From the NCBI GenBank assembly GCA_012520515.1, contig JAAYOD010000005.1, forward strand, positions 1 to 46,164: a DNA stretch of 46,164 bases, written 5' to 3'. Below, piece by piece: positions 2,995 to 46,164 of the stretch (position 1 is the first letter of the stretch; each line of letters opens with the position of its first letter). A model generated the notes under the pieces. The model made no database searches and was not told where the DNA came from. It was given only the letters and a program-made list of their open reading frames with translations. Made by a program: the position numbers and the translations under genes. The DNA comes from Clostridiales bacterium. Lineage in GTDB: Bacteria > Bacillota > Clostridia > Christensenellales > DTU072.

Positions 2995-4101
2995 ATGAAA
3001 TTTTATTGTAACGGAATGGATTTATCAAACGCCACCAACATAGTTAGTAGAGCGCTTGCTGTAAATAAAAATATTCCAATTTTAGAAGGTATTAAAATTT
3101 ATGCTAAAGCAGACACTGTAACTTTTAGTGCATACAATCAAGAATTATATATAGAAAAACAAATAAAGGCAGAAATTTTAATAGAAGGCGAAGTTGTAGT
3201 TAATGGCAAGCTATTTAACGATTATGCTAATAAGCTTTCAAGCCAAGAAAGAATTGCAATAGAAAAAGGGGATAACAACAAAATAAGCATTCTATTTAAT
3301 AGTAGCCAAGCAGAGATTACATATTATGATATAGAAAATTTTCCTCCTCTTGGCAATTATAATGATGATATAAGTATTAAAATAAAAGAAAGTGATTTTA
3401 AACAACTAATAGAAAAGGTAATATTTTGCGCAAGCTTAAATGATACAAGGTTGCTTTTAAAAAGCTGTAATATGGAAGTTATAGATAATTATATTGAAGC
3501 TGTTTGTTTAGATGGATATAGAGTAGCTATATCAAGAAATGAATTAATTGAAAAAAAAGGGCAATTAAAATTTATTATACTTGGAAAAATTTTAAGTGAC
3601 ATTAGCAAAATACTAGATGATAGTGATAATGAAATTACTATAAGCAGAGTAAATAATATGATAGTTATGGATCTTGGCCACACAAAGATAAGAACTACCA
3701 CGGTAGAAGGCGATTTTTATAATTATAGAAATAATTTACCGCAAGAAATAAATAATGTAATTATAATAAATAAAGAAGAGCTAGAAAGCTGTCTATCAAG
3801 AGTTAGCATAATAAGCAAAGACCTTGCATTTAATAGAATAACAATAACAATAGAAGAAGGAAAGTTTAACATCTTTTCCGAAAGCGAAAAAGGCAGAGTA
3901 AATGAAACTATAGATTGCAAGGCAGAAGGAGAAAAAATTAGAATAGGATTAAATTCTAAATATTTGATGGATGCTATACTAAGAATAAAGGAAGATTATT
4001 TGAAGATAGAGATAGAGCGCGCAATTAAGCCAATTTTAGTTAAGAGAGTGGAAGGTGACGATTATAAATGCGTAATTCTGCCCCTTAGATTAATTGGATA
4101 A
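2995..4101 (+). CDS. dnaN: DNA polymerase III beta subunit (sliding clamp)
   Basis: A 368-residue DnaN: the N-terminal pattern of NATNIVSRAL...NIPILEGIKI, three repeated clamp domains, and the C-terminal VEGDDYKCVILPLRL segment that forms the conserved tail near the protein-binding pocket. It forms the ring that tethers polymerase to DNA. An AAAGGAG site lies 7 bases before the ATG. It follows dnaA across oriC, the standard order. I see no clear separate promoter; it may be read from the dnaA promoter through the origin. Composition is strongly A-rich. Confidence 0.95.
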   Translation: MKFYCNGMDLSNATNIVSRALAVNKNIPILEGIKIYAKADTVTFSAYNQELYIEKQIKAEILIEGEVVVNGKLFNDYANKLSSQERIAIEKGDNNKISILFNSSQAEITYYDIENFPPLGNYNDDISIKIKESDFKQLIEKVIFCASLNDTRLLLKSCNMEVIDNYIEAVCLDGYRVAISRNELIEKKGQLKFIILGKILSDISKILDDSDNEITISRVNNMIVMDLGHTKIRTTTVEGDFYNYRNNLPQEINNVIIINKEELESCLSRVSIISKDLAFNRITITIEEGKFNIFSESEKGRVNETIDCKAEGEKIRIGLNSKYLMDAILRIKEDYLKIEIERAIKPILVKRVEGDDYKCVILPLRLIG

Positions 4102-29973: not shown

Positions 29974-30001
29974 TTGACAAGTATAGTTATTATGTTATAA
30001 T
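29974..30001 (+). promoter_or_regulatory. Promoter of the giant lipoprotein operon
   Basis: Perfect TTGACA (29974-29979) and TATAAT (29996-30001) with a 16-base spacer. The predicted leader is about 50 bases and contains a hairpin. Confidence 0.8.
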
Positions 30002-30017
30002 ATATATACTCATTAAC

Positions 30018-30038
30018 AAAGGGCGAATTATGCCCTTT
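30018..30038 (+). promoter_or_regulatory. Hairpin in the giant lipoprotein leader
   Basis: aaagggc (30018-30024) and gcccttt (30032-30038) form a 7-bp stem with a 7-base loop, followed by one more T and then GAC. It resembles a weak intrinsic terminator between the promoter and the start codon, with too short a T-run to be sure. Confidence 0.45.
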
Positions 30039-30059
30039 TGACTGTTGAAGGACGGTGTC

Positions 30060-33000
30060 ATGAAAAAGCGCATAAGCAAAATTATCATTCTTTGCATAAT
30101 GGCAGTGCTAATAGCTCTGACAGTTGCCGCTTGCGAATTTAACGAAGGCGCTGAAAACCAAGCAAAATTTTACATAAACGACAATGAGTACAATCAGCAG
30201 TTAAAAAACAATACCACCAAAGAACAAGCAATAGATAATGTCACAGAGAGTTTAACCAACCTTAGAGATTACCTTAACGAAACCAGCATGGCAACAACAG
30301 GGTATTACATGGGGGTTGAGTTTAACATAAACACCCTAAACCCCGAAACTTTAGATGGCGGCAACTTCCGTCTTAAAGTGCAGGCGCATTTGTATACTTA
30401 CCCTTATGAAGAGGGCACGCCTGTTGTAAAGTACTTAGACGAAGAGACAGGCAAGTATTATGAGCAGCAAAACGAACAGTCCACGCTAACGCCAGTTAAG
30501 GCAGTTTTTAAATATTTAGAAAAGACCAACGGTAATTATTATGACGAACAAAATGAGAAAAACACCCGTATACTTACCAAGGCAGAAGATATTCATAACG
30601 AAGTTATCAAAAAAAGCAATATTCTTATTGAGTGGTATGATGGCGTTACAAACCAAATGCTCATTGGTATGTACTATGACGGCATAAACAACAATGTCGA
30701 TGACCCTGGCAATATTTTATATCTCAACATTCAAGGCTATAAGAGAAGCTTTATAGATTGGGGCGATACTGTTTTATACCGCCAGCTTATAAGGCTGTTA
30801 ACCAGTCTATCGGTGGAAAAATTGCTGGTTGCTTTAAATGGTCAAGGCGACGCTGGCACAGGCATAATTGGCGAATTTTTAAATCTTGCTGTTGAAGATA
30901 ACTATAAAGTTGTGCTAAACGACCCGGTTACTAGCACACTTTTTTATAACCTTGCAGGAACGGCGCTAGCTGGCAGCATTACAGAGTTTTATCAAAAGAT
31001 TTTCCGTCCGTTTAGAAACAGAATAGACCCGTTTACGCAAAAATATGTAGGATTTAAGTTTTCTACTGTGGCAAACGCTGTAACAAACACCATAAACAGC
31101 GATATGCAATTTTTTACAGAGCTAAACCCAGAGGGCACAAAAGATATAGTCACTGGCGCATATATAACTTTTGACGGAACGGCAACGGATAGAACGGGTG
31201 ACCTTTATGACTATGTTTCCGACATAGGCTTCCAGTATGGCGCTTATCCGCCTGAAGATATGGAGCTTGACAAAGAGCATTATAAGGTGTTTGAAAATGG
31301 TCGCTATGAGTTTGTTGGCAACCTTTATGTGCCTATGCTAAACAGCAACTATGACGCTCTTATCCGCACTGATATGAATAGGTATGACAACAGCACCAAC
31401 AATGTGTTCATGGAGTTTAGAGATATAGCAAACGGCGAACTTATGATGGGGCTATATTATAAAAATGAGCTGACATACATGGACATTACTGGGCTAGAAT
31501 ACCTTTATGGCGCAATTGCTCTCCATGAGCTTGGTTTTCCTAAAGTCTATGATGATAGCCTTAATTTAGCAAAAGCTTTAGACAGCTTAATGAATATGAT
31601 TGACAATGTGATAATTAGCATTGTTGACAGTATTTTAAGCCCTGCGCAGTCGGATAAGGAAAACAGCTTATTAGATTATTTAATGGAGTATAATATGAGC
31701 TCCACAGAAAAAGACCCGAACGATATTTTTAGTAAAAATACAGTCACTCTTACTGTGGATATGGCGCTTGTAAAAGAAGTGCTTAAGCAAACGGGCAACG
31801 GCACTTACACCACAAGGCAAATTATAAACATTTTGGACTCATTTAGCCCATACAGCATGGACCAGATAGCTACTATTTTGGGTATAGCAAGTGCTGAAAT
31901 TATGCTAGATAAGACCTATTTTACCTTTACGCTTAATGTAGACACCAACGAAATAACGGTAAAGATGTTTACTGATGTAGGCTTAGAGATAGGCGAACCT
32001 AGCATTATGATTTTCCAGCTTGATGTCATTGCAACAAAGTTTGGTGAATATGTAAACATAGCGGCAGTTAATTTTGATAACTTTAATCCGCTTGGACAAA
32101 TTTATACTTATAGCGCTACCATGGATGGCAACTTTATGTTTAGCACAGCTGAAGTGGTGGACTTAAGTAAATTGCTTGGCGCTACCATTGGCGATAGTTC
32201 TGGGAAAAACACCGTCTATCAGCTTGCTCCTGAAGCAGGAGTTAGCTTTAACCTAACCTATGACCAGTATGTCTTGGACCAAGAAGTTGACGGCGTGCTT
32301 AAAAAAGGCGGTCGAAGCAGCTTTGACTTAGAAGTGTGGCTAACTGGCCACCAGTCTGGTATTTTGCTAAGACTTGCATCTGATGATGTTGCTTTTAACA
32401 ATGAAGTTTATGACAGGCTGCCAGAGTCTGAAGATGAGCTAGGGTATATTTGGGTAGATATTCAGTGTGTCTATGAAAAAGACGGCAGAACAAGGAGAAT
32501 ACCCAAGGTAAAAATTAGAGAAGATATCTTTATGGCGTCTATGCAGGCGTATATGAATAACACTTCTATAAGAGATGACGCGGCAGACCTTGGCAAGAGC
32601 GATTTTAACCTTTCCATAACCACCATACTTTTTGCCCTTATGGAAGACAGCTATGTTGTAGCGCAACCGGAAAAAATAGAAATAACGACATCAAACGAAA
32701 CTGTGCAAAACCTTTTTAGAGTTAAGAGTTTGATAGGAAATATAAAGACGGATGCTGGTTTTAGAAGAAGGGTAGAAGGGTTAGAAGGCGTCAAAAAAGA
32801 CTATGCTCTTTATCATGTTGGACAGTTTTATGACATGGAGTTTTATAGTCCTTACCATGAAGACGCTATACTTCAAGACACAATCCCAACTCATTTTTAT
32901 ACTGACTATCACGATGTTTATGACCCATTTAAGTTTGTCTTTAGGTTGTGTGAAAACGGCGACTTGCAAGTTTATCACATAGGGCGTTTTAGAGAAGATG

Positions 33001-36000
33001 GTTTTGATTATTATGAACAAAGATATACTTATAAAACGGAAATTGTAGACGGTGTAGAAAAGCAAGTTAAAGTACCTATGCGCCAACAAGTTGATAGCGG
33101 TATTATAAGCATAACTAGAGAACCTATTGAAAATGATGCAAACTCCTTCTTTAACAATCAAGGACCGGAAAACCAAGACATAGAAAAGGTGATGTTTGCG
33201 CTAGAGAAGTTAGATAAGCTAGTTTATCTTAATGACTTTAATGAATATTGCTACTTAGATTATGACGGAGAAGAAGTTGTCATTGAAAGCAGGTATGTCA
33301 TAAAAGACGGGCAAAAAGTCTTTATAAAGTGGCAGGGCATAAGAGATAGAGTTTATTATAACGGCAAAAACGCCCAAAGCCTGTACACCTATTATTTCTT
33401 TAATGATAACTTGGCTGTAAAGAATTTAGACACAGGAGAAAATATTTATTTAGATAGAACGGAAAGCCGTAATTATCTATTTGACTATGACCAAAAATCA
33501 ATAGAGATTACCAATGAAGATAAAACGCAATACGCGCCTAGAATTGAAGGAACATTTATGGGCGCTGTCAGAAGATATTACTTATTAATATCTAGCCGTA
33601 TATCAGAAGAAATTTGTATAGTAACTGGACTTAACAATCAAGAATTTTACTCTTATGACGATGAGTTTAACTTGGTAGAAATTTTTGACGAGGACGGCAT
33701 TAAGATAGGGGAAGAACTTATTCCAATACCGCTTTACATAATGGAGCCAGCAAAACCAATTGCTGAAACGGTATCTGTCATTGTGGACACGCCAAAGACA
33801 AAGACAGCAACTATTAGTCATGCTGCGCTTTGGGGCATTGATTGGGATAAAGTGACGCTAAAAGGCGATATGGTGGTAACGGATGTTACCGTAGCGCCAA
33901 ACACAATGGGCGAGGTTGTGTACCCAGTGCGCATTATAGTTACCAACAGAGAAATTATTGCGCTTAAAACAGTGGACCTTTATGATAATAATTCTGAAGT
34001 AAAGGCAGAAGAAGTGCCCGTTGTTGACGCAATAGAGATAGACCCGTATGACTATATACAAGCAAAGTATGAGTTCTTTATGAGCACCCATAACTTTAAT
34101 CCCACCCAGTACACATCTGCTGAGTTTGACCAAAGACTAAAAGATGCAACGGTGGCATTTAATATAGACTTTTTCAAGTCCTATGTCTTTAATATCACAT
34201 TTAACGCAGAAAATAGCATTTTACGCCAAAAAGAAGTAAAAGAAGAGTATATAGCAAAAGAATACTCTAACAAGCTTTCAGACAATACGCTTGCTTTTTA
34301 TGAATGGAAATTGGACGCCTATGAGGGCTCTAATCAAAACATAGAGAGCAACATAAACCCGCAAGGAGGCTGGGTATACATTCATACTCACTTTGAAGGG
34401 CAGCTTATAGCGTTAGAAGTTAAGGTGGGCAAAAGAGAGTTTGAAAAACTTGTCTTTACAGAATATGATAACTTTGAGCCAACCACCATTGAAAATGAAG
34501 TAAAACTAATTGGGCACTATATGGCAAACTATTATGACGAATCAAGCTTCACAGTGCCTGTAAGACCAACATTTGTATTTAAAGATGAGTATGGTATTGA
34601 ATACAACAAGGTTTTTGACTTTGACTATGTCTATGACTTAGACAATAACGGCAACTACCTGATAAGAAAATATGGCATAGAATGGGCTGACCCTGTAGTT
34701 ACCAACATTGGCAGTATGGGCTCATATTTTTATAGGTATAACTTGCTAGCTGCTGAACCTAGCGACTTTACAGAAAATTATAGCAACTACTTTACAAGAG
34801 ATGGTCAAGGTACAGCGGAAGACCCCTACTGCTTCACACCGCTTAAGTCAGCTAAAGAGTTTGAGCAAAATAAATATTATGAAAAAGGTGATATAGTCAA
34901 TAGACCGTTTTATATAAGCAATGTAGAAAGAGATGAAAACGGGCAAATAATTAGTGAAAAAGCGCCAACAGAAACTAATAATGACTCTGACATAGACACA
35001 GCTACATTTAATCTAAAGCATATTATGTGCTTGTATAAGTATGAAAATGGACAAAAAACAGCAATTCCAATGATACCTGATTTAGGGGGCGTAGACTGGT
35101 TCCCTATGCTAGAGTTAAGAGTTAAGGTAGAGTGTCCGCAACTTGATGTAGACGATATTGGAGTATCAGAGTTTGACGAAATTAATGAAGTTACATTTAC
35201 GCCATCTGCGTTAGGAATAGGACAAAGTACTATAGGATACTACCAAATAGACCCACTTAACGCCGCGTCTAAAAAATTGCCAAATCAAATTAGGATATAC
35301 TTTAGAGATGAGTTTGGCAATAGAGTTAGCAGTCACTTGTTTACAAATATTGAATGGTTTAACTTTGACTTAGGCAAGGAAGTTATTGTTTATAATGAAG
35401 AAGAAGACGCCTACTACTTTAATTTGTCTACTGAAACACCGCTAACTACTCAAGTTATGGCAAGAGTGGGCAGCGAAATATCCGGTTTTCAAGAGATAGT
35501 TTTGTGTATAAAGGTGCTTAGCAAAGACCCGCAAAAAGTAGAATTTTATTCTTCAAGCAACATAAACGAAGAAAATCGCTATAAAGAGATTGACCAAATA
35601 TCTGTAAATATGGGCGAAGTGGTAGCTTACGATAAAGATACAGATGTAGGCATAGTGCAAAGCGATAAAAATTATGTTAGCTATTCTTACTATGTAGACA
35701 CTTTTGACAATTTTTCACTGCCAGCATTTTTAGTTGCTACCTTTGGCACTATGGGCAATGAAAGACAGCAAATTTACGCTACCAACTGGCGACTGGTTGT
35801 AGGACAAGAAAGCCCTGTTTATCACCCTGACAGCATTGTTAATTTAGTGACCACCATAGGCGATGGCGATGTTATTATAAATATTTATTTGGCTGTAATT
35901 GTTAAAAATTACACCATAAGCCGTATTGACTTAAATACAGCGCTTAACAACTTCTATGTAAAGGTGGGCGACAACAATAACTTTATGTTTGCCACTTTGG

Positions 36001-39000
36001 CAAGCTTATATCAAAGAAGCATACTTTCTCAAGATAAACTTGGTTTTTACTATGTCGATGAGCAAACGGGTGATGAAAGCTATATTGTGATAAGCACAGG
36101 CAGCGCAAACGACGGCGAAGTGGAAATTGGCAAAATAGGGCTTTACACTCAATCAGATGGCGTATTTGAATTAGCTAATCAAATGTATCCATATGAGTTT
36201 ATAAATGGCTTGTACTCTAATATGAATATAGCCTTTGCCCCTGAGAAAAAGGTGACATATTGGCAATATCCATACGCTTATGAAGATATTTATGTTAGAT
36301 TGCACAACAGCATTGACGGCAGTATTAACAGAAAGCTTAGTGATGTAGTTACAGTAAAATACGCATATGACCACAGCAGTCAAAAAGATACTGTAAGCGT
36401 AGAGTATAAGATGGTGGAAGGAATACCTTTTTATCTGCAGCTAACCGAGGGCGACACGCTAAAATTATACGCCAATATGAGTATGGGCGAAGAGACAGCA
36501 ATAACGGTGTCGCTGCAAGAGCTTACAAACGCCATTATTTTAAGAGAAATGACAAAAGAGCTTGTGCAAAATCAAGTACTAAATGTCAAAAAAGGCGACA
36601 ATACACAAGAGTTTGGTCAAGGCGTAACGCTTGAACAAAGCTATGCGTATTCCCGCGGCGTATATACATTCTATGACCAAGATAGAAATGAAATTACCTT
36701 TGACTCAATTACATTATTAGATGAATTTAATAATGAGTGGACACTGAGCTACCAAGAGCTTATTTATAGACTTAACTATTACAGAAACTATCTTGTGGAA
36801 GGGCGCACACCGCAAATGATAGCAGGAAAATCAGTAGAAATTACCAATATGCTTGGTATATTTAATATAAACGATGTGGTAATTTCTCAAACCGTTGTGT
36901 TCAAGGAAAGCACAAACTACAAAATTAATATAGGCACAGGAAAGGACTCTTATAACCTAACTTTAAGAATTATTTTCTCAGGCGGATTAAATACAGTATC
37001 AACTAGCGACGATGTTACAATTTATGCATATAACGCAAATGGATATGCGCAGTATGGCGAACTTGGCTATGTGTTAGGGACGGAAATACTTACAAATGTC
37101 ACCGCAATAAAACAAGATATCTCATTTGGCCAAGTTACTTATAACTATGGATATTTAGACAGTGAAAAGCTTGTTAATTGGCATGTTGAGTACAGCGGAT
37201 ATCCCCAAATTGAGCAAGGCACATTTATAACTACTATACCGCAAGAAGTGGTGTATGCAAATTCCGAAGAAACCATTACTTTAAGTACGCTAACTAGTCA
37301 AGGTTTCCGCATAAGGAGAAACTTTAGCTTTGTGGGCATACAAGATAACATTACCACCTTTGATAGCGTTGGCTCAGACTTAGTTATAGATAACGGAGTA
37401 ATCTATATTAAGGATATCTATAACTACTATCCTTTATATGAAAACTTTGCAACTGCAAGCAAATTGCCTTCTACCATAGAGATAAAAACACCAAATCAAG
37501 TGCTTAGAGTAACCGATGTGGAGTGGCAGATATCTAGCACATGGAATGACGGCAGAACGGGCAGAATGTATGATATGACCTATTTAGGCACATATAACCC
37601 AACCGTTGGTTATAATAGCAATGAAAGAATAGCTGAAGCAAATATTTTGGGCTGGACAATGATGGAAAACGGCAAGCCAGTGCAAAAGAATACTATAAAA
37701 ATTCAGCTATACCTAAATATAGATAGCGCGCAAGTTGTCAGCTTGCCCTGGTCAGATAAAAACCCCAAGCTTGACACAACGACCTTAAGAGAAAACGGAA
37801 AAGATATTTTTGCGGTCGATGTAGATGCCTATAAAGATTCTCAAAGCTCTGCAATAAGCGGAAAAAACCTAATTTTGCCATCTAATATAGTAGTGCAATA
37901 CTCTAGCGGGCTTACCCATAACTTTAGTGATGTTGTCTATAGATTCCGCAATATTCCAATAGACAATATTCCATATTCTATAAAGGGCATTAATATAGAG
38001 AGTTTAGCAATGGCTCTAAATGCGCCAATAGAACAATTTAACCGTTATTATATAGACCTTGATGTAAACTTAGGCTTAGGACAGCAAATTACCATGCGTT
38101 TCCGCTTCTATGATAAGACCATAGAAAACATAGTGCCAGTGGTGGAATTAAGCGACCAAAACATTAGAAAGAGCATAGCAAACGCTATGGATTATTTAGC
38201 AAAAGAAGCAGAAGAAGAGCTAATAGACAAGTTTAACCTAACAAGAATAGGCGCAAATTTAGAAAATCTTGTGCTTCAAGCTAGGCAAATAAGAGAAAGA
38301 ATGATAATTCCCACTTCAAGCGAAATTGCCCAAGTTGCCAATGACGCAAATCAAATAAGGGCGATGCTAAGAGGTGCGTTTGACGGCATTATACCTTATG
38401 AAGAAGAGTTGCCTATAGAGGGTGAAGCGTATACGGCAAGTTACTGCTGGAATTATGCTTACTATTTTATGGAAGAATATATAAATACCGATGCTAATTT
38501 ATCGCCATATATTGCAAACATTCAAAGGAATAGGTCTAGCAACACCAGAATAGCAGAATATATAAACGCATTCTATAACGATATGTTAATTAGGTGCTAT
38601 GAAACAATAATTTATTATTATGTGCAGGAAGAGCTTGTAAAAGTGTTGACTGTGGAAACAGAAAAAATAGACGCAGTCCAGCTTAATTTAGCAGTTTATT
38701 ATAAAAACTTAGTTGAGTCATACATAGATGTAGAGAACATAATTAGAGAAGTTTATAAAGCGCTTGAGCTTTATGATTGCAGTGTATATTCTGAGCAACA
38801 GCGAAATGAGCATATAATAGGCGCATTTAATGCTAAGATAGAGCAAGCAGAGCAAGAAGCGCAAAAAATAAGTTCAAATGATGCTTTAGCAAATGAAATA
38901 ATTGGGCAAATATTCAGAACGCAAATTGGACTAGGCGAAAACTATCACGATTATATACCGCTTACAGGGTATACCGTTGGCGACTTTATAAATAGCTACC

Positions 39001-41642
39001 TATTAAAGAGCAAGGTAGAGATGAGAGAGATTATAAAGAGCATGATAAATAGGTGCATGGACTTTAGCGTAGATATTGGCTTTGGCCCTGCCTTAACTTC
39101 TCAAATGCGACAAGTGCTTAGCTTAAGCATAGTGCAAGCTTATGCCCAAACGCCAAGCCTAAACACCAGCATAGCTGCAATTAGGTCCAACATTACAACA
39201 GGCATTGCAAATGACACTGCTGTTCATACGCTGTTTACAAGGGCGCTATCTAGCTATGTCAATAAAATTTATATGGAGTGTAAAGTAGCTGGTGAGATAA
39301 AACGAATACAAAGCCAAGGCGTACGCACAGACAGCTATTATATTATGGACCCGTATGGCGATTACTTATATGTTCCTACTAGATTTATTGCTGACTTTAA
39401 TGAAGAATGGGGCGGATTTAGCTATAGCTTTAATATAGTATGGCAAAATGACGATATCTCAAATAGAGCAAGCAGTCAAGGTAACGCAAAGGCTGACGAA
39501 TACGCCTATATAGAACTATGGTTAAAGATGTATGATAAATATAAGGCAAATCCAATTGCATTAGAAAAACTTGACGCAATTATTTTCTATCTTACACCTT
39601 ACCAAAGTTGGCAAGAAATAAAACAAGAGTATCAAAGCATCTATAATATACTTATAAACATTGAGCAAAACTTGACAGAAAGGTTTGCACCCTATGGGCT
39701 TTATGAAAGCGACGCAAGTCTTGACGAAAAAGCACTTATACTTTACTCATATTATAGGTTTGGACAAGATTTATACAATACTGCAAAGACAAATGCCGCA
39801 GCAATTGATGGCGAATGGGAAATGAGCAGTAAAGAAATTTTACGCGTCTTTGAGGAGTACAAATATAGCACGCTAGTGTCAAGCTTGGCGTTATCTACAA
39901 CGGGAGAAACGCAAGAATTACGCCTTGTTGCAAAAGTGCTTGACAGAACAATTGATCCTGGCGATATTCAAATAAAGGATAAAAACGGCACAGTTTATAC
40001 AGAATATGTCATAGAGAACCCATTTACGCAAACACAAAAAGACATTCCTAATATAGTAACCATTGACGGAACTGATTATCCTGTTATTTGGAAAAATGTA
40101 AACATAAGGCCAGCTGGCAACCTAGGCGCAAATAAGACCATTTACGGCAACATAAAAAATAGTCAGGGGCAACAAGTTACTTTGCTTCTTACAGTCAACA
40201 AGTGGGCGTACACTGGTATGCGCTATATTTCTGGCACAGATATAAACGGCGACCCAATTTACACCAATATGAATAGCGGTGGATACCTAAACTTTTACTT
40301 TAACGGATATCAAGAATACGCGTCAAAAGATTATTATCAAGTGGCATTTAATGTGTACTCGGAATCATCTCAAGACAGCACGCCTATGTTTATAAACTTC
40401 TATCCTGAAGACAGCAGGCTACTAAGAAATACCACAAGCGACGCAGGCATGAATGAAGTAAAACAAAGAAGAGATTATATCATCTATTGGGATAGCACAG
40501 CAAAATCAACAGTTATAAACCACGCAAGCAACGCAATTAATCAAGTGGGAAGCGTGTTTATAGGCAATGCAACTGTTGGACAATTTAACCTAACTTCTCT
40601 TTATGACAACACAGTAACTGGCGTAGTTACTCAAGGCAAGTATTTTTATGAAGAGATGGTTATAGATAAAATACAGCTAATTGATATAGATTCAGGAAAA
40701 TACTATGAAGATGTTGCGCCTTACCTAATGGCAAGCAGTGCAGAAACAACGCTAATTACTGATCCTACTTTGAATTTGCCAGTTTCTGGTAAAGTTTTGA
40801 TAAATGACGGTCATGTCGATTACAGCCACAGCGATATAAAAGTAAGACTTATATGGAATGCCTCTTATGAGCTTGCAATAAATAGGCTGGAAGGTTTTGT
40901 GGTGTATACATATAAAGATGTAGCCACAAATGAAGTTAATTCAAAAGCCAAAAACATACTTATGAATTATGACTTGACAGAAACTGAGAGGGCGCAACTT
41001 ATACAAGATGCAGTGGCGTATGTCAAAAATCGTGACGGTTGCGACCATATAGGAACAGAGTGCGATAAATGCTATAAAGAAGCGCTAAAATTGCTTTGCA
41101 TAGATGAAAAGCATGATTACCTTGGCGCAGAAAGTTATCTAAAGGGCGGAATTTATGGCAACAAGTCAGTAACTGTTGTAGTGCAAGTAGGTAAGTCTTT
41201 GGCACTCTATGCAACAACAGTAAAGGTAAAAATGGTGTTTAGCGACTTTACTTCAAGGGGCAATTACTATATGACTAACCCCGATGGCTCTGAGCTAGAC
41301 CCAAATAACTTTACGCTATTTGATGAAGTTTATGAAAACAACTTGCCACAAACAGTTTATATGCTAGTTAGAGCAAGTTACTGGACGCAAGAAAGTAACA
41401 AAAACAGCTACGCAGACCAAGGCGCAGTTAGCCCATATAATACACAAGATACCTATATCTATAAGCTACTAGATATGTTTAATGAAACAAATGAAAGTAG
41501 GCCGCACCTTGCACAAGGCAACCTTGTAAAAGTGACAAACATAGAGTATGGCAGTGTGCAAAATGGACAGGTGTCATCAACTTCATTTGTAATAGACGGG
41601 ATAAGGTATTATAGCAACTTAATATCTTTTACAGTAGCATAA
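30060..41642 (+). CDS. Giant cell-surface lipoprotein (3860 residues)
   Basis: No known function recognised. I place the start at the ATG at 30060, with AAGGA about 8 bases upstream, not the in-frame TTG at 30045. A basic and hydrophobic signal ends in the lipobox LTVAAC with C25, so the mature protein should be lipid-anchored outside the cell. In order: an N-terminal pair of 27-residue repeats (30429-30590); a module with LMMGLYYKNELTYMDITGL and FPKVYDDSLNLAKAL (about 31435-31590) shared with the next gene; long beta-rich stretches with Ig-like units of the pattern LPxxIxVxF...W (for example near 35270, 35720, 37465 and 37880); a helix-rich, proline-poor region (about 38155-39300, residues 2700-3080); further beta-rich DNA to the end; and a Cys cluster CDHIGTECDKC (about 41040-41075). 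It is acidic and rich in Tyr, Asn and Asp. Gap to the next gene is 13 bases. A surface scaffold or adhesin is plausible but unproven. Confidence 0.85.
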   Translation: MKKRISKIIILCIMAVLIALTVAACEFNEGAENQAKFYINDNEYNQQLKNNTTKEQAIDNVTESLTNLRDYLNETSMATTGYYMGVEFNINTLNPETLDGGNFRLKVQAHLYTYPYEEGTPVVKYLDEETGKYYEQQNEQSTLTPVKAVFKYLEKTNGNYYDEQNEKNTRILTKAEDIHNEVIKKSNILIEWYDGVTNQMLIGMYYDGINNNVDDPGNILYLNIQGYKRSFIDWGDTVLYRQLIRLLTSLSVEKLLVALNGQGDAGTGIIGEFLNLAVEDNYKVVLNDPVTSTLFYNLAGTALAGSITEFYQKIFRPFRNRIDPFTQKYVGFKFSTVANAVTNTINSDMQFFTELNPEGTKDIVTGAYITFDGTATDRTGDLYDYVSDIGFQYGAYPPEDMELDKEHYKVFENGRYEFVGNLYVPMLNSNYDALIRTDMNRYDNSTNNVFMEFRDIANGELMMGLYYKNELTYMDITGLEYLYGAIALHELGFPKVYDDSLNLAKALDSLMNMIDNVIISIVDSILSPAQSDKENSLLDYLMEYNMSSTEKDPNDIFSKNTVTLTVDMALVKEVLKQTGNGTYTTRQIINILDSFSPYSMDQIATILGIASAEIMLDKTYFTFTLNVDTNEITVKMFTDVGLEIGEPSIMIFQLDVIATKFGEYVNIAAVNFDNFNPLGQIYTYSATMDGNFMFSTAEVVDLSKLLGATIGDSSGKNTVYQLAPEAGVSFNLTYDQYVLDQEVDGVLKKGGRSSFDLEVWLTGHQSGILLRLASDDVAFNNEVYDRLPESEDELGYIWVDIQCVYEKDGRTRRIPKVKIREDIFMASMQAYMNNTSIRDDAADLGKSDFNLSITTILFALMEDSYVVAQPEKIEITTSNETVQNLFRVKSLIGNIKTDAGFRRRVEGLEGVKKDYALYHVGQFYDMEFYSPYHEDAILQDTIPTHFYTDYHDVYDPFKFVFRLCENGDLQVYHIGRFREDGFDYYEQRYTYKTEIVDGVEKQVKVPMRQQVDSGIISITREPIENDANSFFNNQGPENQDIEKVMFALEKLDKLVYLNDFNEYCYLDYDGEEVVIESRYVIKDGQKVFIKWQGIRDRVYYNGKNAQSLYTYYFFNDNLAVKNLDTGENIYLDRTESRNYLFDYDQKSIEITNEDKTQYAPRIEGTFMGAVRRYYLLISSRISEEICIVTGLNNQEFYSYDDEFNLVEIFDEDGIKIGEELIPIPLYIMEPAKPIAETVSVIVDTPKTKTATISHAALWGIDWDKVTLKGDMVVTDVTVAPNTMGEVVYPVRIIVTNREIIALKTVDLYDNNSEVKAEEVPVVDAIEIDPYDYIQAKYEFFMSTHNFNPTQYTSAEFDQRLKDATVAFNIDFFKSYVFNITFNAENSILRQKEVKEEYIAKEYSNKLSDNTLAFYEWKLDAYEGSNQNIESNINPQGGWVYIHTHFEGQLIALEVKVGKREFEKLVFTEYDNFEPTTIENEVKLIGHYMANYYDESSFTVPVRPTFVFKDEYGIEYNKVFDFDYVYDLDNNGNYLIRKYGIEWADPVVTNIGSMGSYFYRYNLLAAEPSDFTENYSNYFTRDGQGTAEDPYCFTPLKSAKEFEQNKYYEKGDIVNRPFYISNVERDENGQIISEKAPTETNNDSDIDTATFNLKHIMCLYKYENGQKTAIPMIPDLGGVDWFPMLELRVKVECPQLDVDDIGVSEFDEINEVTFTPSALGIGQSTIGYYQIDPLNAASKKLPNQIRIYFRDEFGNRVSSHLFTNIEWFNFDLGKEVIVYNEEEDAYYFNLSTETPLTTQVMARVGSEISGFQEIVLCIKVLSKDPQKVEFYSSSNINEENRYKEIDQISVNMGEVVAYDKDTDVGIVQSDKNYVSYSYYVDTFDNFSLPAFLVATFGTMGNERQQIYATNWRLVVGQESPVYHPDSIVNLVTTIGDGDVIINIYLAVIVKNYTISRIDLNTALNNFYVKVGDNNNFMFATLASLYQRSILSQDKLGFYYVDEQTGDESYIVISTGSANDGEVEIGKIGLYTQSDGVFELANQMYPYEFINGLYSNMNIAFAPEKKVTYWQYPYAYEDIYVRLHNSIDGSINRKLSDVVTVKYAYDHSSQKDTVSVEYKMVEGIPFYLQLTEGDTLKLYANMSMGEETAITVSLQELTNAIILREMTKELVQNQVLNVKKGDNTQEFGQGVTLEQSYAYSRGVYTFYDQDRNEITFDSITLLDEFNNEWTLSYQELIYRLNYYRNYLVEGRTPQMIAGKSVEITNMLGIFNINDVVISQTVVFKESTNYKINIGTGKDSYNLTLRIIFSGGLNTVSTSDDVTIYAYNANGYAQYGELGYVLGTEILTNVTAIKQDISFGQVTYNYGYLDSEKLVNWHVEYSGYPQIEQGTFITTIPQEVVYANSEETITLSTLTSQGFRIRRNFSFVGIQDNITTFDSVGSDLVIDNGVIYIKDIYNYYPLYENFATASKLPSTIEIKTPNQVLRVTDVEWQISSTWNDGRTGRMYDMTYLGTYNPTVGYNSNERIAEANILGWTMMENGKPVQKNTIKIQLYLNIDSAQVVSLPWSDKNPKLDTTTLRENGKDIFAVDVDAYKDSQSSAISGKNLILPSNIVVQYSSGLTHNFSDVVYRFRNIPIDNIPYSIKGINIESLAMALNAPIEQFNRYYIDLDVNLGLGQQITMRFRFYDKTIENIVPVVELSDQNIRKSIANAMDYLAKEAEEELIDKFNLTRIGANLENLVLQARQIRERMIIPTSSEIAQVANDANQIRAMLRGAFDGIIPYEEELPIEGEAYTASYCWNYAYYFMEEYINTDANLSPYIANIQRNRSSNTRIAEYINAFYNDMLIRCYETIIYYYVQEELVKVLTVETEKIDAVQLNLAVYYKNLVESYIDVENIIREVYKALELYDCSVYSEQQRNEHIIGAFNAKIEQAEQEAQKISSNDALANEIIGQIFRTQIGLGENYHDYIPLTGYTVGDFINSYLLKSKVEMREIIKSMINRCMDFSVDIGFGPALTSQMRQVLSLSIVQAYAQTPSLNTSIAAIRSNITTGIANDTAVHTLFTRALSSYVNKIYMECKVAGEIKRIQSQGVRTDSYYIMDPYGDYLYVPTRFIADFNEEWGGFSYSFNIVWQNDDISNRASSQGNAKADEYAYIELWLKMYDKYKANPIALEKLDAIIFYLTPYQSWQEIKQEYQSIYNILINIEQNLTERFAPYGLYESDASLDEKALILYSYYRFGQDLYNTAKTNAAAIDGEWEMSSKEILRVFEEYKYSTLVSSLALSTTGETQELRLVAKVLDRTIDPGDIQIKDKNGTVYTEYVIENPFTQTQKDIPNIVTIDGTDYPVIWKNVNIRPAGNLGANKTIYGNIKNSQGQQVTLLLTVNKWAYTGMRYISGTDINGDPIYTNMNSGGYLNFYFNGYQEYASKDYYQVAFNVYSESSQDSTPMFINFYPEDSRLLRNTTSDAGMNEVKQRRDYIIYWDSTAKSTVINHASNAINQVGSVFIGNATVGQFNLTSLYDNTVTGVVTQGKYFYEEMVIDKIQLIDIDSGKYYEDVAPYLMASSAETTLITDPTLNLPVSGKVLINDGHVDYSHSDIKVRLIWNASYELAINRLEGFVVYTYKDVATNEVNSKAKNILMNYDLTETERAQLIQDAVAYVKNRDGCDHIGTECDKCYKEALKLLCIDEKHDYLGAESYLKGGIYGNKSVTVVVQVGKSLALYATTVKVKMVFSDFTSRGNYYMTNPDGSELDPNNFTLFDEVYENNLPQTVYMLVRASYWTQESNKNSYADQGAVSPYNTQDTYIYKLLDMFNETNESRPHLAQGNLVKVTNIEYGSVQNGQVSSTSFVIDGIRYYSNLISFTVA
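30429..30590 (+). repeat. Diverged 81-bp (27-residue) tandem repeat in the giant lipoprotein
   Basis: Units at 30429-30509 and 30510-30590 encode KYLDEETGKYYEQQNE... and KYLEKTNGNYYDEQNE..., sharing KYL-(D/E)-x3-G-x-YY-(E/D)-x-QNE and a closing KA. The duplication is old, since the DNA has diverged, and lies in the N-terminal domain. Confidence 0.75.
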
Positions 41643-41655
41643 AAAAGGAAAGAGA

Positions 41656-44600
41656 ATGAAGAAAAAGTTAAGTTTAATCTTAATACTCACTATGATAGTA
41701 GCGCTTGCGCTAACGCTTTTTGCATGCTCTCAAAGGCCAGAAGAAGACATTGATGACCCGCTGCCTAATCCTGCTAAGGAAAAAATCACAGTGCCGCAGG
41801 CAATGCAAAGCACTTATGAAGGAATTATGGCAGGGAGCGATGTTATAAGCAAAGCTGATTCCTATGCTGTAGAAAGCGTTTATACCATATTTACAGAGCA
41901 AGAATTAAACTATACAGTTACTTATAAAGCAAATTACGCTGCCAACAAGCAAGACAGCGAAATATATTTATCCTTTTTTGACAATAGCCCAAAAGAGCAT
42001 AGAAACAGGTTGTCGCTATACTATGACAGCAAAAATTTATACATACTAACGGACTATGAGAAAAAGTTTATAGAAAACTTTAGCATGACATCAATGTTTG
42101 ACGCATTTTTTGATTTAGTTAGATATGCCGATTTGTCAGACAAGATGTTTAGTGAAACGGGCGCGTACATATTTAATAGAGAAAACTCTTCTTTAAACCT
42201 AGGTATAGTGCTAGACTCAAGCAGCGTAGACAGAACAGTAGTTAGCCAAACTAGAGATAGCCTTAGCTATACTGACATTACGCTAGATATAATCTCTGAC
42301 ACCGTTAACGCTTATATGGACAACTACTTAGGCGACATAGGCGATAAGTTTGATGTCATTACAAAGAAATATTTAGGTTTTAGACTAAGCCGTGTCATTT
42401 CGCCAAGATTTTCCTATATAAAAGTTAGCGATATGAATTTCCAAAGGGAAAATGGCGTAGCTGACTATGCAAAAGTTAATATGTCAGGCTCTTTTAGAGA
42501 TTCTAGCAAGTATAAGATTGACGCAGAAATAGGCTACAAGACAACAGAAAAAATAAACATTAAAGAAAAGGCAAACTTTGACCCTGAAAGATTTAGCCAT
42601 GTCAATTTAGGACAAAATAACTATGTAGGCAAGATTTATATACCAGCGCTTAGCAAAGAAGATTTTGACATTAGAATAGTCACTAACATAGACACTGAAA
42701 GCAACGCAAACAATGAGCTGTCTTTAGATATAACAGACGCCAAAAATTCTCATCTTGCGGGAGCTTACTATCGCGATGAGATTATGTATTTAGATATATC
42801 AGGACTAGATGAGCAATATGTAAGGGGAGCTGTTGACCTAAACGCATTTAACTTGCCTAAGGTGTATTTTGAAAACATTAATCTAACGCTTATCCTTAAC
42901 GCATTTTATAACAGCGGTATAAAAATGCTCACTACAATATTAGATAGGACCTTTAACATAGGCGATATAGAAAATGAAAATCTATATTCTATTATTATGG
43001 AAAACTTCGACAGCGAAGGCAATACCATATATTACACCATAACAGAAGAGCTTATTCAGCTTATAAGAGAAGATGACACAAGAACGGCTGAGCTAATAGC
43101 AGATTTAATAAATATCCCTGTGGAAAAGATAGACAGCGTTCTAGGCAAAGATTTCTTTGCAAATAGCGCTATAAAGATAAGCTATAATTTAGATACAGGC
43201 ACGATTGGCTTGTCATATTATTATGATGAAAGGCTTGTGTTTGACTTAAGCGTAGACGCCGAAGAGTATAAGGGGGTCATTTTCCCAGAAGACACCCGCC
43301 TTGAAACCAACGCTTACAATAGACTTATTTTCCCCAACGATATCAAGACAGAGCTTATTGTGGAATTTGAAGTAGCAAGCGCTAAAGAATCTAGCGATAT
43401 GAGCAAAGCCTTAGGGGCATTTATTGGTGACCCATCAGGCAATAATACAAAGTACTTAATTAAGAAAGGACAAACGCTTGTGTTAAAGGCGCAAGCAAGC
43501 CAAAAATTTGTATCGCTTGGCAGCAGCGACCTAGTTTCTGAGTACCTAATGCGATTTGACCTTTTTGATGCAAAAGATATAAATAATCCGCTTATGAGCG
43601 TTTATACCAATCCGCGCAATCTAGATGAATATTTGGTAACATATAGATTGCCACTTGGAAAAGACCAATATGTAAATGAACAAGGACTAAACTTTGTTAT
43701 TGCAAAATCTGAAGTTGCCTTAAGCTTAAATAAAATTTTGGGAGATAACAATGTCTTTGAAGACACATCGCTGTTTGGCATAGTTAGCGACATTCTAAAA
43801 GGCAAGTCATCACGCACCTATGTATCAAATTCTGATGGATACTTTAGCTTTGTGCTACAAGTGGAAAACAACCCAAATACTGGAGAAAAATATGACCCTG
43901 TGCAAAGGCTTATTGGCGTATCTGATTTGCTTGCAAGGGTAAAGACAAGATTTTTATTTTCTGGAGTTGTGCTAAATGACATAATGCCAGCTAGCTTTGA
44001 TAAGCCTAAGCTAGATGCAAAGTTCTCTAACGCAATAGGCGTTCAAAGTTTGTATAGTCCAAACAGTATGTGGAAAGATTCCATAGAAGTTGGCATTAAT
44101 AATCAAACTATAAATATGGCGCCTAACTATATTAGTGATAGCATTAAGATAGGGGGCGACAAAAAGACATACACGCCAACTTGTAGACTCTTTGGTCAAG
44201 AAGTTAGCTACACCATGAGCATTTTAAGTGAAATAGGCACATATGAAGTAGCTAGACTTGTTTCTAACATCATTACAATAGACCCGTCCACTACAAACAA
44301 ATTACCAACGCAAATAGAAGTGGAGTTTACAAACGGCAAGACAGGCTGGCTAACTTGCAAGATTGAGGGGCTTACAGACAACATTGTAACGCACGCAGGG
44401 TATAACCTTGAAGTGTTTGCAAATGAGCTTAGCCAGTCATATACGCTAAGAATTGGACAAAACAGCATTATAGAAGCTAACTTTACTGTGCAAGTTGCCG
44501 TATACAATCGTACTGTTATTCCGCTTACCGACGCAAGTACGCTAGAAGGCATGACAGATAGCAACAATGTTCCTGTAATTGGCATAATTAATATAGACCC

Positions 44601-46164
44601 ATACGAATACGCTATGAGAAAGAATGACGACCCGTCATACAATCCTATCTTGGCAGGCATTAATGAGCAAAATATGCGACTTGACTTTTACAATGTCTAT
44701 GGTAAGCATGAAGTTTCTGGAGAGGACTTAAAGTTTAACGCTGAAAATGTAAACTATTTCTTCTTAAAGAAACTTGGACTAGAATGGGAGTTTAATGAGG
44801 AACAAATTAAGTATAATGGCGGAGAGCTTTTTGCATATGCCTACTTTGGACAAGGTCAAACTAAAATTAAGCTAGCTATAAAGGTAAATGTTGTAGCAAA
44901 AACAATTAGCTACGTGCAAATTAATGATGAAAACATAAACACATACACCATAGATAGTTTAATTGCATCCACTTACAAAATTCCCACCCAAACGGGAATA
45001 GGCACAGATGTAAAAGTATTCTTTGCAGACGGTACTTATCGTATTGTGCAATTACATAGGCCAGAGAGCGTAGACGACCAAACTTATTATAAAAGCTATT
45101 TGCCTACTGAGCTTGCTTGGTATATCCCCAATCCTAACTATATGGAAAGAGTTAGCCTTGCTACTGGCGCAAGTGATTTATTTGGCGCAATGGGTAATTC
45201 TACCTATGCAGAGATTAGTATAGGCTCACTTGGCGTTGATAAAGTCGACCTTTATGTAGAAGTGCCAGAAAGATGGATATCTATAGGCGATATGCGAAGT
45301 AAAGATGCTATTAAGGAAATTTCAGAGCATGGCGATGGCACATTTACGCTAGGCAACACCACTCAAGTAAGCATTTCTCCTGTAAAGTTTACTAAAGATG
45401 GCGAACTGTACGAATTTTTCACTATAAACCCATATGATGAGAATGGCAAACTTCCAAATGAAATTTATATGGAAGTGTACAAGCAGTACACAAACAGAAA
45501 TGAACGCATAATTAAAAAATACAAAGTAACTTGGCTAACTACCAATTTAGACAATGTAGAAACCAACATTTTATATATTGACGACGATGGCTTTGCAAGA
45601 CTTAAAAATCCAACAACTGACCAAAACGACTTCTTAGTTTATGGTGTTATAGGCGATGGCATTTTTACCCTTCAAATATCTACTTGGGTAAGAAATCTTG
45701 CAAGCAAACTTGTCACCATACAGTATGAGGGTATGGAAAAAGATGTTATGGAAATGACCATAGACCCTTATAAGCCTTATATATTGCCGTCAGCCTTTAC
45801 CGCAACGCTAGAAAGCGGCGAAAAGGTATACCGCAGCGATATAGAATGGATGGTAAGAAAAGACGGCGATGATATATGGATGCCAATTGTTGTAAAAGGC
45901 GGGCAACAGTATGACCCAGCGTACTATGATAAAGATGGCAAATATCTATTCCACTTTGAAGGCGGAACTTACTATGTTCGTTATATCCTAGAGGCATCAG
46001 GAAGCGTGCTAAGGCAAGAAATGCTTATTCGGATAGATGTTGAGCCAAGAACGATTGTTGCTGACACTATAAACATTTATGAAAGCGGTGGACTAGTAGC
46101 TGGTTATACCGATATTAATTACTATAAGGCAGACAGCCAAAGGCTGTTAGACCGCATTAATGCG
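41656..46164 (+). CDS. Large cell-surface lipoprotein, paralogue of the giant one (partial, runs off the right edge)
   Basis: The frame is open for 1503 codons to the last base with no stop, so the true size is larger. AAAGGAAAG lies just before the ATG, 13 bases after the giant gene, so the two are co-transcribed. The signal peptide ends in the lipobox LFAC with C24. The N-terminal module aligns with the giant protein: AGAYYRDEIMYLDISGL and LPKVYFENINLTLIL (about 42755-42905). A shared VPVIGIINIDPYEY segment (about 44572) matches VPVVDAIEIDPYDY of the giant protein. Ig-like LP...W units occur near 44310 (LPTQIEVEFTNGKTGWL), 45450 and 45785 (LPSAFTATLESGEKV...IEW). No enzymatic motif is seen. 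Function unknown. Confidence 0.85.
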   Translation, partial: MKKKLSLILILTMIVALALTLFACSQRPEEDIDDPLPNPAKEKITVPQAMQSTYEGIMAGSDVISKADSYAVESVYTIFTEQELNYTVTYKANYAANKQDSEIYLSFFDNSPKEHRNRLSLYYDSKNLYILTDYEKKFIENFSMTSMFDAFFDLVRYADLSDKMFSETGAYIFNRENSSLNLGIVLDSSSVDRTVVSQTRDSLSYTDITLDIISDTVNAYMDNYLGDIGDKFDVITKKYLGFRLSRVISPRFSYIKVSDMNFQRENGVADYAKVNMSGSFRDSSKYKIDAEIGYKTTEKINIKEKANFDPERFSHVNLGQNNYVGKIYIPALSKEDFDIRIVTNIDTESNANNELSLDITDAKNSHLAGAYYRDEIMYLDISGLDEQYVRGAVDLNAFNLPKVYFENINLTLILNAFYNSGIKMLTTILDRTFNIGDIENENLYSIIMENFDSEGNTIYYTITEELIQLIREDDTRTAELIADLINIPVEKIDSVLGKDFFANSAIKISYNLDTGTIGLSYYYDERLVFDLSVDAEEYKGVIFPEDTRLETNAYNRLIFPNDIKTELIVEFEVASAKESSDMSKALGAFIGDPSGNNTKYLIKKGQTLVLKAQASQKFVSLGSSDLVSEYLMRFDLFDAKDINNPLMSVYTNPRNLDEYLVTYRLPLGKDQYVNEQGLNFVIAKSEVALSLNKILGDNNVFEDTSLFGIVSDILKGKSSRTYVSNSDGYFSFVLQVENNPNTGEKYDPVQRLIGVSDLLARVKTRFLFSGVVLNDIMPASFDKPKLDAKFSNAIGVQSLYSPNSMWKDSIEVGINNQTINMAPNYISDSIKIGGDKKTYTPTCRLFGQEVSYTMSILSEIGTYEVARLVSNIITIDPSTTNKLPTQIEVEFTNGKTGWLTCKIEGLTDNIVTHAGYNLEVFANELSQSYTLRIGQNSIIEANFTVQVAVYNRTVIPLTDASTLEGMTDSNNVPVIGIINIDPYEYAMRKNDDPSYNPILAGINEQNMRLDFYNVYGKHEVSGEDLKFNAENVNYFFLKKLGLEWEFNEEQIKYNGGELFAYAYFGQGQTKIKLAIKVNVVAKTISYVQINDENINTYTIDSLIASTYKIPTQTGIGTDVKVFFADGTYRIVQLHRPESVDDQTYYKSYLPTELAWYIPNPNYMERVSLATGASDLFGAMGNSTYAEISIGSLGVDKVDLYVEVPERWISIGDMRSKDAIKEISEHGDGTFTLGNTTQVSISPVKFTKDGELYEFFTINPYDENGKLPNEIYMEVYKQYTNRNERIIKKYKVTWLTTNLDNVETNILYIDDDGFARLKNPTTDQNDFLVYGVIGDGIFTLQISTWVRNLASKLVTIQYEGMEKDVMEMTIDPYKPYILPSAFTATLESGEKVYRSDIEWMVRKDGDDIWMPIVVKGGQQYDPAYYDKDGKYLFHFEGGTYYVRYILEASGSVLRQEMLIRIDVEPRTIVADTINIYESGGLVAGYTDINYYKADSQRLLDRINA

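Follow-up and report, generated by a model that had tools for sequence, protein, structure and literature searches.

Paired giant lipoproteins with a conserved N-terminal domain, possibly surface fibres, in a small-genome family of Christensenellales

What might two adjacent genes for giant lipoproteins do for a bacterium whose genome measures 1.56 Mb (59 contigs, completeness 92.7%), and do they belong to any described family? The question is raised by an operon in a Clostridiales bacterium (order Christensenellales, DTU072; assembly GCA_012520515.1, contig JAAYOD010000005.1). The window, that is, the whole stretch of DNA analysed, is the entire contig C13 of 46,164 bases, and the operon runs up to its right-hand end. 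A first-pass annotation had described a lipoprotein of 3860 residues (here gene 1) and, 13 bases on, a second of at least 1503 residues (gene 2), both with a lipobox; we confirmed the coordinates and the lipobox cysteines, Cys25 and Cys24. With slightly better than even confidence, we propose that the pair forms giant fibres, lipid-anchored at the cell surface, that serve in adhesion or in capturing substrate. The anatomy of the proteins is well supported, and from it we infer the function.

The two genes and their shared N-terminal domain

The two genes, their lipoboxes and the contig end are located as follows.

30060..41642, + strand: gene 1, giant lipoprotein of 3860 amino acids (aa), ATG at 30060, stop ending at 41642
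30123..30134, + strand: lipobox VAAC of gene 1, Cys25, read from the sequence
41656..46164, + strand: 5' part of gene 2, residues 1-1503, ATG at 41656, 13 bases after gene 1
41716..41727, + strand: lipobox LFAC of gene 2, Cys24, read from the sequence
46038..46164, + strand: exact overlap of 127 bp with the end of contig C54, the last bases of C13

The gene 2 frame is still open at the window end, with 1503 codons inside. Extending the contig, as the first-pass annotation had proposed, completed it: the frame carries on in C54 (L008:779-12073, - strand) for 3764 aa and then stops, and the 127-bp overlap holds 41 shared residues, so gene 2 comes to ~5225 aa (1461 + 3764). We infer the C13-C54 junction from this overlap of contig ends, and the two gene 2 pieces were analysed separately. 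The coding length of the pair is ~27.3 kb, or 1.7% of the genome.

Comparable lengths recur in relatives. Uncut homologues of gene 1 span 2954-5860 aa, and gene 2 is a single open reading frame (ORF) of 5108-5672 aa in five relatives of the same genus; in a sixth, the open frame is 6743 aa long and the retrieved stretch ends at 6362 aa. We read the remaining gene 2 relatives as fragmented or cut by contig ends. Between two close species (G006 and G009), the ratio of non-synonymous to synonymous substitution rates (dN/dS) is 0.136 for gene 2 (5108 aligned codons) and 0.124 for gene 1 (3275 available codons, the gene being cut in G006). Constraint is strongest in the first 1200 codons (dN/dS 0.01-0.08) and weakest distally, where the ratio rises to 0.25 for gene 2 and, in the short final tile of gene 1, to 0.33. 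Both genes are under purifying selection and are therefore real; the ratios, together with single ORFs of similar size in relatives, rule out a frame artefact or a pseudogene. In G001, of the same genus, the gene 2 frame (C31, L132) is just 2717 aa and breaks at a run of N, past which homologous sequence resumes in another frame (the two frames were compared separately); this looks like an assembly gap. Runs of N also lie within or between the giant genes of G024:C107 (L061, L030) and break or hide parts of their frames.

Using signal peptide, lipobox and invariant cysteine as the criterion, we found a lipobox in all 21 gene 2 sequences and in 20 of the 21 gene 1 sequences, the start of the remaining one being cut by a contig end. 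The first-pass annotation had also pointed to two segments shared by the proteins in the same order, and these were recovered in the sequences themselves, by blastp and by profile alignment. The first reads YYKNELTYMDITGL..PKVYDDSLNL and YYRDEIMYLDISGL..PKVYFENINL, the second VPVVDAIEIDPYDY and VPVIGIINIDPYEY. In a four-protein blastp comparison, residues 320-720 of gene 1 matched residues 230-600 of gene 2, and the VPV..IDPY blocks matched in the same order at E 7e-4 to 2e-3. Gene 2 as a query found gene 1 in the host genome at E 1.1e-18, and the N-terminal family profiles of the two genes aligned over 711 columns (hhalign, Prob 100, E 3.8e-59). The genome search, profile alignment and blastp rule out motifs shared by chance; judged from these alignments, genes 1 and 2 are paralogues whose N-termini are clearly homologous over ~750 residues.

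On the same kind of evidence, the shared YY..DI..GL/PKVY motif is part of a module predicted to occur twice in each protein, with the copies ~250 residues apart. We described it with a hidden Markov model (HMM) of 84 positions built from 12 copies (alignment A6), four from the window and eight from five other ORFs of the order. At least two copies were found in 21/21 gene 1 sequences and in 20/21 gene 2 sequences, L060 having one (iE up to 0.05). The four window copies listed here are themselves in A6, and their iE values are not independent of the HMM.

30177..32864, + strand: gene 1 residues 40-935, conserved N-terminal domain, 33-67% identical to 19 relatives, 38-sequence alignment
30543..30824, + strand: module copy 1 of gene 1, residues 162-255, iE 8e-18
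31329..31625, + strand: module copy 2 of gene 1, residues 424-522, with the YY..E..Y.DI.GL / PKVY motif, iE 5e-27
33885..34214, + strand: VPV..IDPYDY block of gene 1, residues 1276-1385, shared with gene 2 by blastp
41893..42144, + strand: module copy 1 of gene 2, residues 80-163, iE 6e-22
42640..42942, + strand: module copy 2 of gene 2, residues 329-429, iE 5e-24
44446..44748, + strand: VPV..IDPYEY block of gene 2, residues 931-1031, shared with gene 1 by blastp

The first-pass annotation recognised no described family covering these proteins. This stands for the N-terminal part and fails for the distal parts, where Big_4, MBG and beta-helix families were found, mainly in relatives. The N-terminal ~900 residues of gene 1 gave no convincing match in Pfam (38 members), NCBIfam or PDB; the best Pfam match, to a helix-turn-helix model in four members (E 0.0012), was taken as chance. 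Searches with the module and with a 280-residue unit found nothing convincing either, the best Pfam match having E 0.0024 in one member and the best PDB match, taken as chance, E 0.038. At the sequence level, no beta-helix Pfam match fell on the N-terminal domain in the 38 members. The Pfam, NCBIfam and PDB profile searches rule out an N-terminal domain lying wholly within a known family, and profile searches did not place both proteins wholly in any characterised family.

Conservation of the pair and spread of the module

The first-pass annotation set the pair in a region that otherwise holds housekeeping genes. The pair is no local oddity: it is a family-wide two-gene unit, and its module extends across the order in often larger ORFs. 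The gene 2 query matched 39 of the 40 host-family genomes. A search for co-occurring neighbours, also suggested earlier, placed both genes on one contig in 28/40 genomes, in the same order and on the same strand in all 28 (hand count), and on different contigs in 7/40. The genes alongside vary, from the rpsR region here to ecfA-, NagD- or AI-2E-transporter-like genes or rnpA-yidD-yidC elsewhere (read by eye from ORF starts); the pair has therefore been kept while its surroundings changed. In several other genera (seven loci), a third lipoprotein gene of 732-1074 aa with weak module similarity lies upstream of gene 1 (L029:475-3222, L031:869-3220, L034:515-3085, L036:12368-15562, L032, L033 and L038).

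When contigs were scanned, gene 2 alone as the query found no relative, and the gene 1 domain alignment A1 (19 of the 20 fetched gene 1 loci, near-duplicate L041 omitted) found 38 loci. They come from records named Christensenella sp., Christensenellaceae, Clostridia, Clostridiales, Eubacteriales, Firmicutes, Bacillota bacterium and Candidatus Stercoripulliclostridium, some titles mentioning the rumen, colon or rectum of roe deer, sheep or goat; alignment A2 holds 37 of them plus the window, with the partial L096 omitted. Across 16 genomes, pairwise distances between gene 1 N-termini correlate with those between gene 2 N-termini (r 0.86; 0/5000 permutations as high), which fits joint inheritance and by itself is no proof of interaction. 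The gene 1 domain had no match in phages, plasmids or viral contigs, and there was no PHROG match; a phage or plasmid origin is ruled out on these grounds.

At E 0.001, the module was found in 81/297 genomes and 24/125 genera of the order and in 0/397 other genomes of the phylum sample, the search being limited to the phylum. As far as sampled, the N-terminal domain and its module appear confined to one order. Sizes were taken from the matches listed, which comprise 95 distinct ORFs (by genome and length) in 63 of the 81 genomes. Among these matches, 80 of the 95 ORFs reach 2000 aa or more and 24 of them 9000 aa or more, with a maximum of 13,589 aa; shorter ones may be contig-end cuts. Within the larger module ORFs, units of ~280 residues stand in tandem. 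At least 16 of 20 host-family genomes carry, besides the pair, an additional module ORF of 6,429-13,589 aa; none was found in the host genome itself, which is 92.7% complete.

These larger ORFs were sampled individually. The Ig-like (immunoglobulin-like) repeat of the family described below was present in 0/6 other ORFs of the order (G006:C9, G007:C50, G009:C8, G041, G052 and G300), and in the G009 giant, most of which was scanned in five tiles, a single Pfam domain, CarboxypepD_reg, passed its cut-off. Three giants of the same genus, L111/L112 (G009:C8:7086-41099), L113/L114 and L115/L116, with ORFs of 11,337, 11,348 and at least 12,030 aa (12,531 in the order-wide search), carry a lipobox and the N-terminal module. 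In G009 and G006, the giant is flanked on one side by a TtcA-like gene and on the other by a gene for a small lipoprotein with an apparently NlpC/P60-like C-terminus, judged by eye.

The host genome holds a second giant lipoprotein, of 4001 aa, at C8:76697-88699 (L004:1-9699 (-) with L123), with lipobox LASC and Big_3 Ig-like domains. Close by is P0004 (L123:4525-6174, - strand), a lipoprotein of 550 aa in which the module probably occurs twice, the copies scoring iE 1.8e-6 and 6e-5 in a small set. Against the unit profile, hhalign gave P0004 only E 0.0025 at 12% probability, and less against the gene 1 and gene 2 profiles; P0004 is a possible minimal member of the module class, suited to structural work. 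A match of P0004 to designed 'Cake' proteins in PDB (E 0.0015) was short and local, 26 residues, and was set aside.

The 4001-aa gene is linked to gene 1 by its upstream sequence. The single consensus promoter that had been placed ahead of the operon is borne out, and a leader hairpin follows it.

29974..30001, + strand: sigma-70 type promoter TTGACA-16-TATAAT, 12/12 match, TG before the second hexamer
30018..30038, + strand: leader hairpin AAAGGGC-GAATTAT-GCCCTTT in the 5' untranslated region, 7-bp stem, predicted fold

By eye, 7/7 same-genus relatives viewed have TTGACA and then a TATAAT-like box ahead of gene 1, and an AAAGGG..CCCTTT pattern recurs there in several relatives. The hairpin fold of the 63-nt stretch has z -1.83, 9/200 shuffles folding equally well; it might stabilise the 27-kb mRNA. 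The 19-base pattern AGGGNGAATTATGCCCTTT occurs exactly at two sites only in the host genome, in the gene 1 leader and at the C8 gene for the 4001-aa giant. The same -10 box and leader before both genes suggest that they are under joint control, and we counted this second giant with its shared promoter and leader in favour of lipid-anchored surface fibres. A third near match to the leader pattern, with two mismatches, falls within a uvrC-like frame and seems to be a chance occurrence. Rfam gave no match on L004, the region of the C8 giant gene.

Anchoring, distal domains and the role of the pair

How would such proteins be held at the cell surface? The host genome encodes LspA (lipoprotein signal peptidase II, PF01252, E 2.6e-36). 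It gave no match to sortase PF04203, which 3/14 control genomes matched, and neither protein has a C-terminal LPXTG, hydrophobic segment or charged tail (gene 1 ends ..YYSNLISFTVA, gene 2 ..NGIDFVSIY). Omp85 matched 0/38 family genomes and 7/14 control genomes, and there is therefore no sign of a second membrane to bridge. LspA with no sortase and no Omp85 match makes a single-membrane cell with N-terminally lipid-held giants the parsimonious reading.

Distal to the shared domain, both proteins carry predicted Ig-like repeats.

35199..39470, + strand: gene 1 Ig-like repeats of Big_4 type, at residues 1714-1847, 1864-1965, 2586-2713 and 3089-3137, repeat HMM, iE at most 0.05
44248..46092, + strand: gene 2 Ig-like repeats inside the window, at residues 865-975, 1248-1349 and 1363-1479, repeat HMM

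The family repeat HMM (consensus ..YYIDPYDDTFTLPTTITVYFADGSVELTFYNVEWEL..) gave 330 matches in the collected proteins, from which its seeds were also drawn, and none in reversed sequences; four of the matches lie in the host's gene 1, and its two gene 2 pieces hold 3 + 5. Big_4 (PF07532), at E up to 0.1, was found in 8/37 gene 2 tiles (best 1.8e-7) and in 6/31 gene 1 tiles (best 7.7e-8), the 31 being a hand-picked set (A5). MBG_3 occurred in 8/19 gene 2 C-termini, the MBG families concerned being PF18887 and PF18676, and Beta_helix (PF13229) in 10/19 (best 5.3e-8). Alignments A3 and A4 omit the cut gene 2 sequences L054 and L061, and A4 includes the first host Ig tile only. Neither Big_4 nor Beta_helix showed up when the entire 3764-aa gene 2 piece was scanned. 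The distal parts appear, on these profile matches, to include known domain kinds that are recognised mainly in relatives, the host proteins falling below the Pfam cut-offs. The beta-helix fold is common among proteins that bind or cleave polysaccharides.

We propose the following arrangement. Both giant lipoproteins would be expressed from the one strong promoter, processed at their N-termini by LspA and anchored on the outside of the cell's one membrane. The conserved N-terminal domain would then lie near membrane and wall, the Ig-like chain would take the distal end through the wall and beyond, and the distal domains (in gene 2, the beta-helix) would bind glycans, plant-fibre polysaccharide or other cells. 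The lipid anchor would substitute for sortase anchoring, seemingly absent from the genome. Joint action of the two proteins is probable, perhaps within a hetero-oligomeric fibre; that they touch directly is a guess.

Several observations weigh against this proposal. The host proteins themselves score low: the gene 2 Big_4 tile reaches 13.7 bits against a cut-off of 22.1 (E 0.046), the first gene 1 tile has no Big_4 match, and the C-terminal tile of gene 2 reaches 24.0 bits for Beta_helix against a cut-off of 25.9 (E 3.3e-5), a match seen only when that tile is scanned and absent, at E up to 1, from a scan of the full 3764-aa piece. Beta-helix and Ig-like domains are found in enzymes and in purely structural proteins too. 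Since conservation peaks in the N-terminal domain, the proteins may owe their main function to it rather than to adhesion; and with the genome 92.7% complete, a sortase could fall in the gap. A gene 1-like match alone was found in 4/40 family genomes and neither gene in 1/40 (G010, with one weak module match), and the parallel divergence of the two genes may be mere shared vertical descent.

Of the roles floated in the first-pass annotation, structural surface proteins or adhesins fit best, and parts of an envelope assembly remain a rival. In that reading, which we hold possible though clearly the less probable, the pair is a surface coat or scaffold that stands in for an S-layer or for wall-anchored proteins, its N-terminal domain organising the zone between membrane and wall and adhesion being secondary. 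The domain beside the lipid anchor is the best conserved and most constrained part of the proteins, as such a role would have it; the match in 39/40 family genomes suggests a core rather than accessory role, giants with the same module occur across the order, and the host genome has no sortase match. Faster distal divergence and a beta-helix tail, however, suit contact with a changing outside.

A long shot is that the proteins handle lipids or other amphiphiles, the module forming a LolA/LppX- or AsmA-like groove that moves or binds lipids, lipoglycans or hydrophobic nutrients between membrane and surface. The pattern of strands, YY..LY.DI.G and amphipathic helices resembles that of such folds, the ~280-residue units repeat in tandem, and one of 30 unit sequences matched MDM31_MDM32 at E 0.042, which is chance level. 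Against it, no profile or PDB match was convincing, Omp85 gave no match in the 38 family genomes searched, and the profiles of E. coli LolA, LolB, AsmA and TamB did not score above unrelated controls, in a comparison in which the AsmA-TamB and LolA-LolB control pairs failed too. Unlikely as well is a wider version, in which the order-wide domain, in 2 to ~8 copies, would be a membrane-proximal binding or transport groove for lipids or lipoglycans. The colossal lipoproteins (longest ORF 13,589 aa) would then span the wall as lipid-handling bridges and not be simple adhesins, with this operon as their paired branch, conserved in the family.

It is most improbable that one strain recently picked up the pair as ordinary variable adhesin genes without wider significance: giant surface proteins are described in other bacteria (excerpts of PMC10619420 and PMC12863079), but family-wide pairing and purifying selection contradict this reading, as does the lack of gene 1 domain matches in plasmids, phages and viral contigs.

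Known giant proteins and the meaning of the pair

Lipid-anchored fibres would join a kind of protein already known from other bacteria. In the accessible part of PMC12863079, the Giant1-5 proteins of Apilactobacillus kunkeei are exported proteins of 3,000-8,000 aa encoded by consecutive genes in a 1.5-Mb genome. Like our pair, they are described there as having repeats, a beta-solenoid domain and a proposed role in adhesion or aggregation; they differ, in the same text, in a Sec/SP1 signal peptide, a C-terminal DUF5776 and, in Giant1-4, an N-terminal solenoid. Our pair has lipoboxes, a conserved N-terminal domain without a family match, Ig-like repeats and a beta-helix at the C-terminus of gene 2, and Pfam scans of the host proteins and member tiles gave no match to DUF5776. 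The giant adhesin of Mobiluncus mulieris, as excerpted from PMC10619420, has 7651 aa and 51 cross-linked Ig-like domains. The very long chain, Ig-like domains and a proposed location at the cell surface are common to both according to that excerpt, whereas our pair has fewer recognised repeats (eight in gene 2, four in gene 1), no recognised cross-link domain and a lipobox.

Other likenesses are more distant. Proteins with Big_4, MBG and right-handed beta-helix domains resemble the pair distally, where among members gene 1 carries Big_4 and gene 2 all three kinds; these families cover distal parts only, and the ~900-residue N-terminal domain lies outside them. Reduced genomes of Omnitrophota encode giant ORFs, one of them of 39,678 aa, for which cell-cell adhesion or a coat has been proposed (PMC10066038, in the part available). 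The Velamenicoccia giants are characterised in that part as mostly poorly conserved with few annotated domains, whereas our pair is conserved, paired, lipobox-bearing and found in an order of Clostridia. Judged from the available parts of these sources, Giant1-5 and the Mobiluncus adhesin are the nearest published cases found; they may work similarly, with a different anchor and different domains. No description of these giant lipoproteins was found in the open-licence PMC literature. Giant surface proteins are known as a kind; what appears to be new, on the sequence comparisons made here, is an N-terminal domain that matched no known family and, as far as sampled, belongs to one order.

The finding is of a giant pair, bearing lipoboxes in a genome without a sortase match, that nearly all searched members of an uncultured small-genome family have kept. 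Solving one small member of the module class, possibly the 550-aa P0004, could account for an entire class of very large proteins. It would also make testable how a cell attaches to fibre or to partners without sortase, and what a two-gene operon of 27 kb is worth to a genome of 1.6 Mb.

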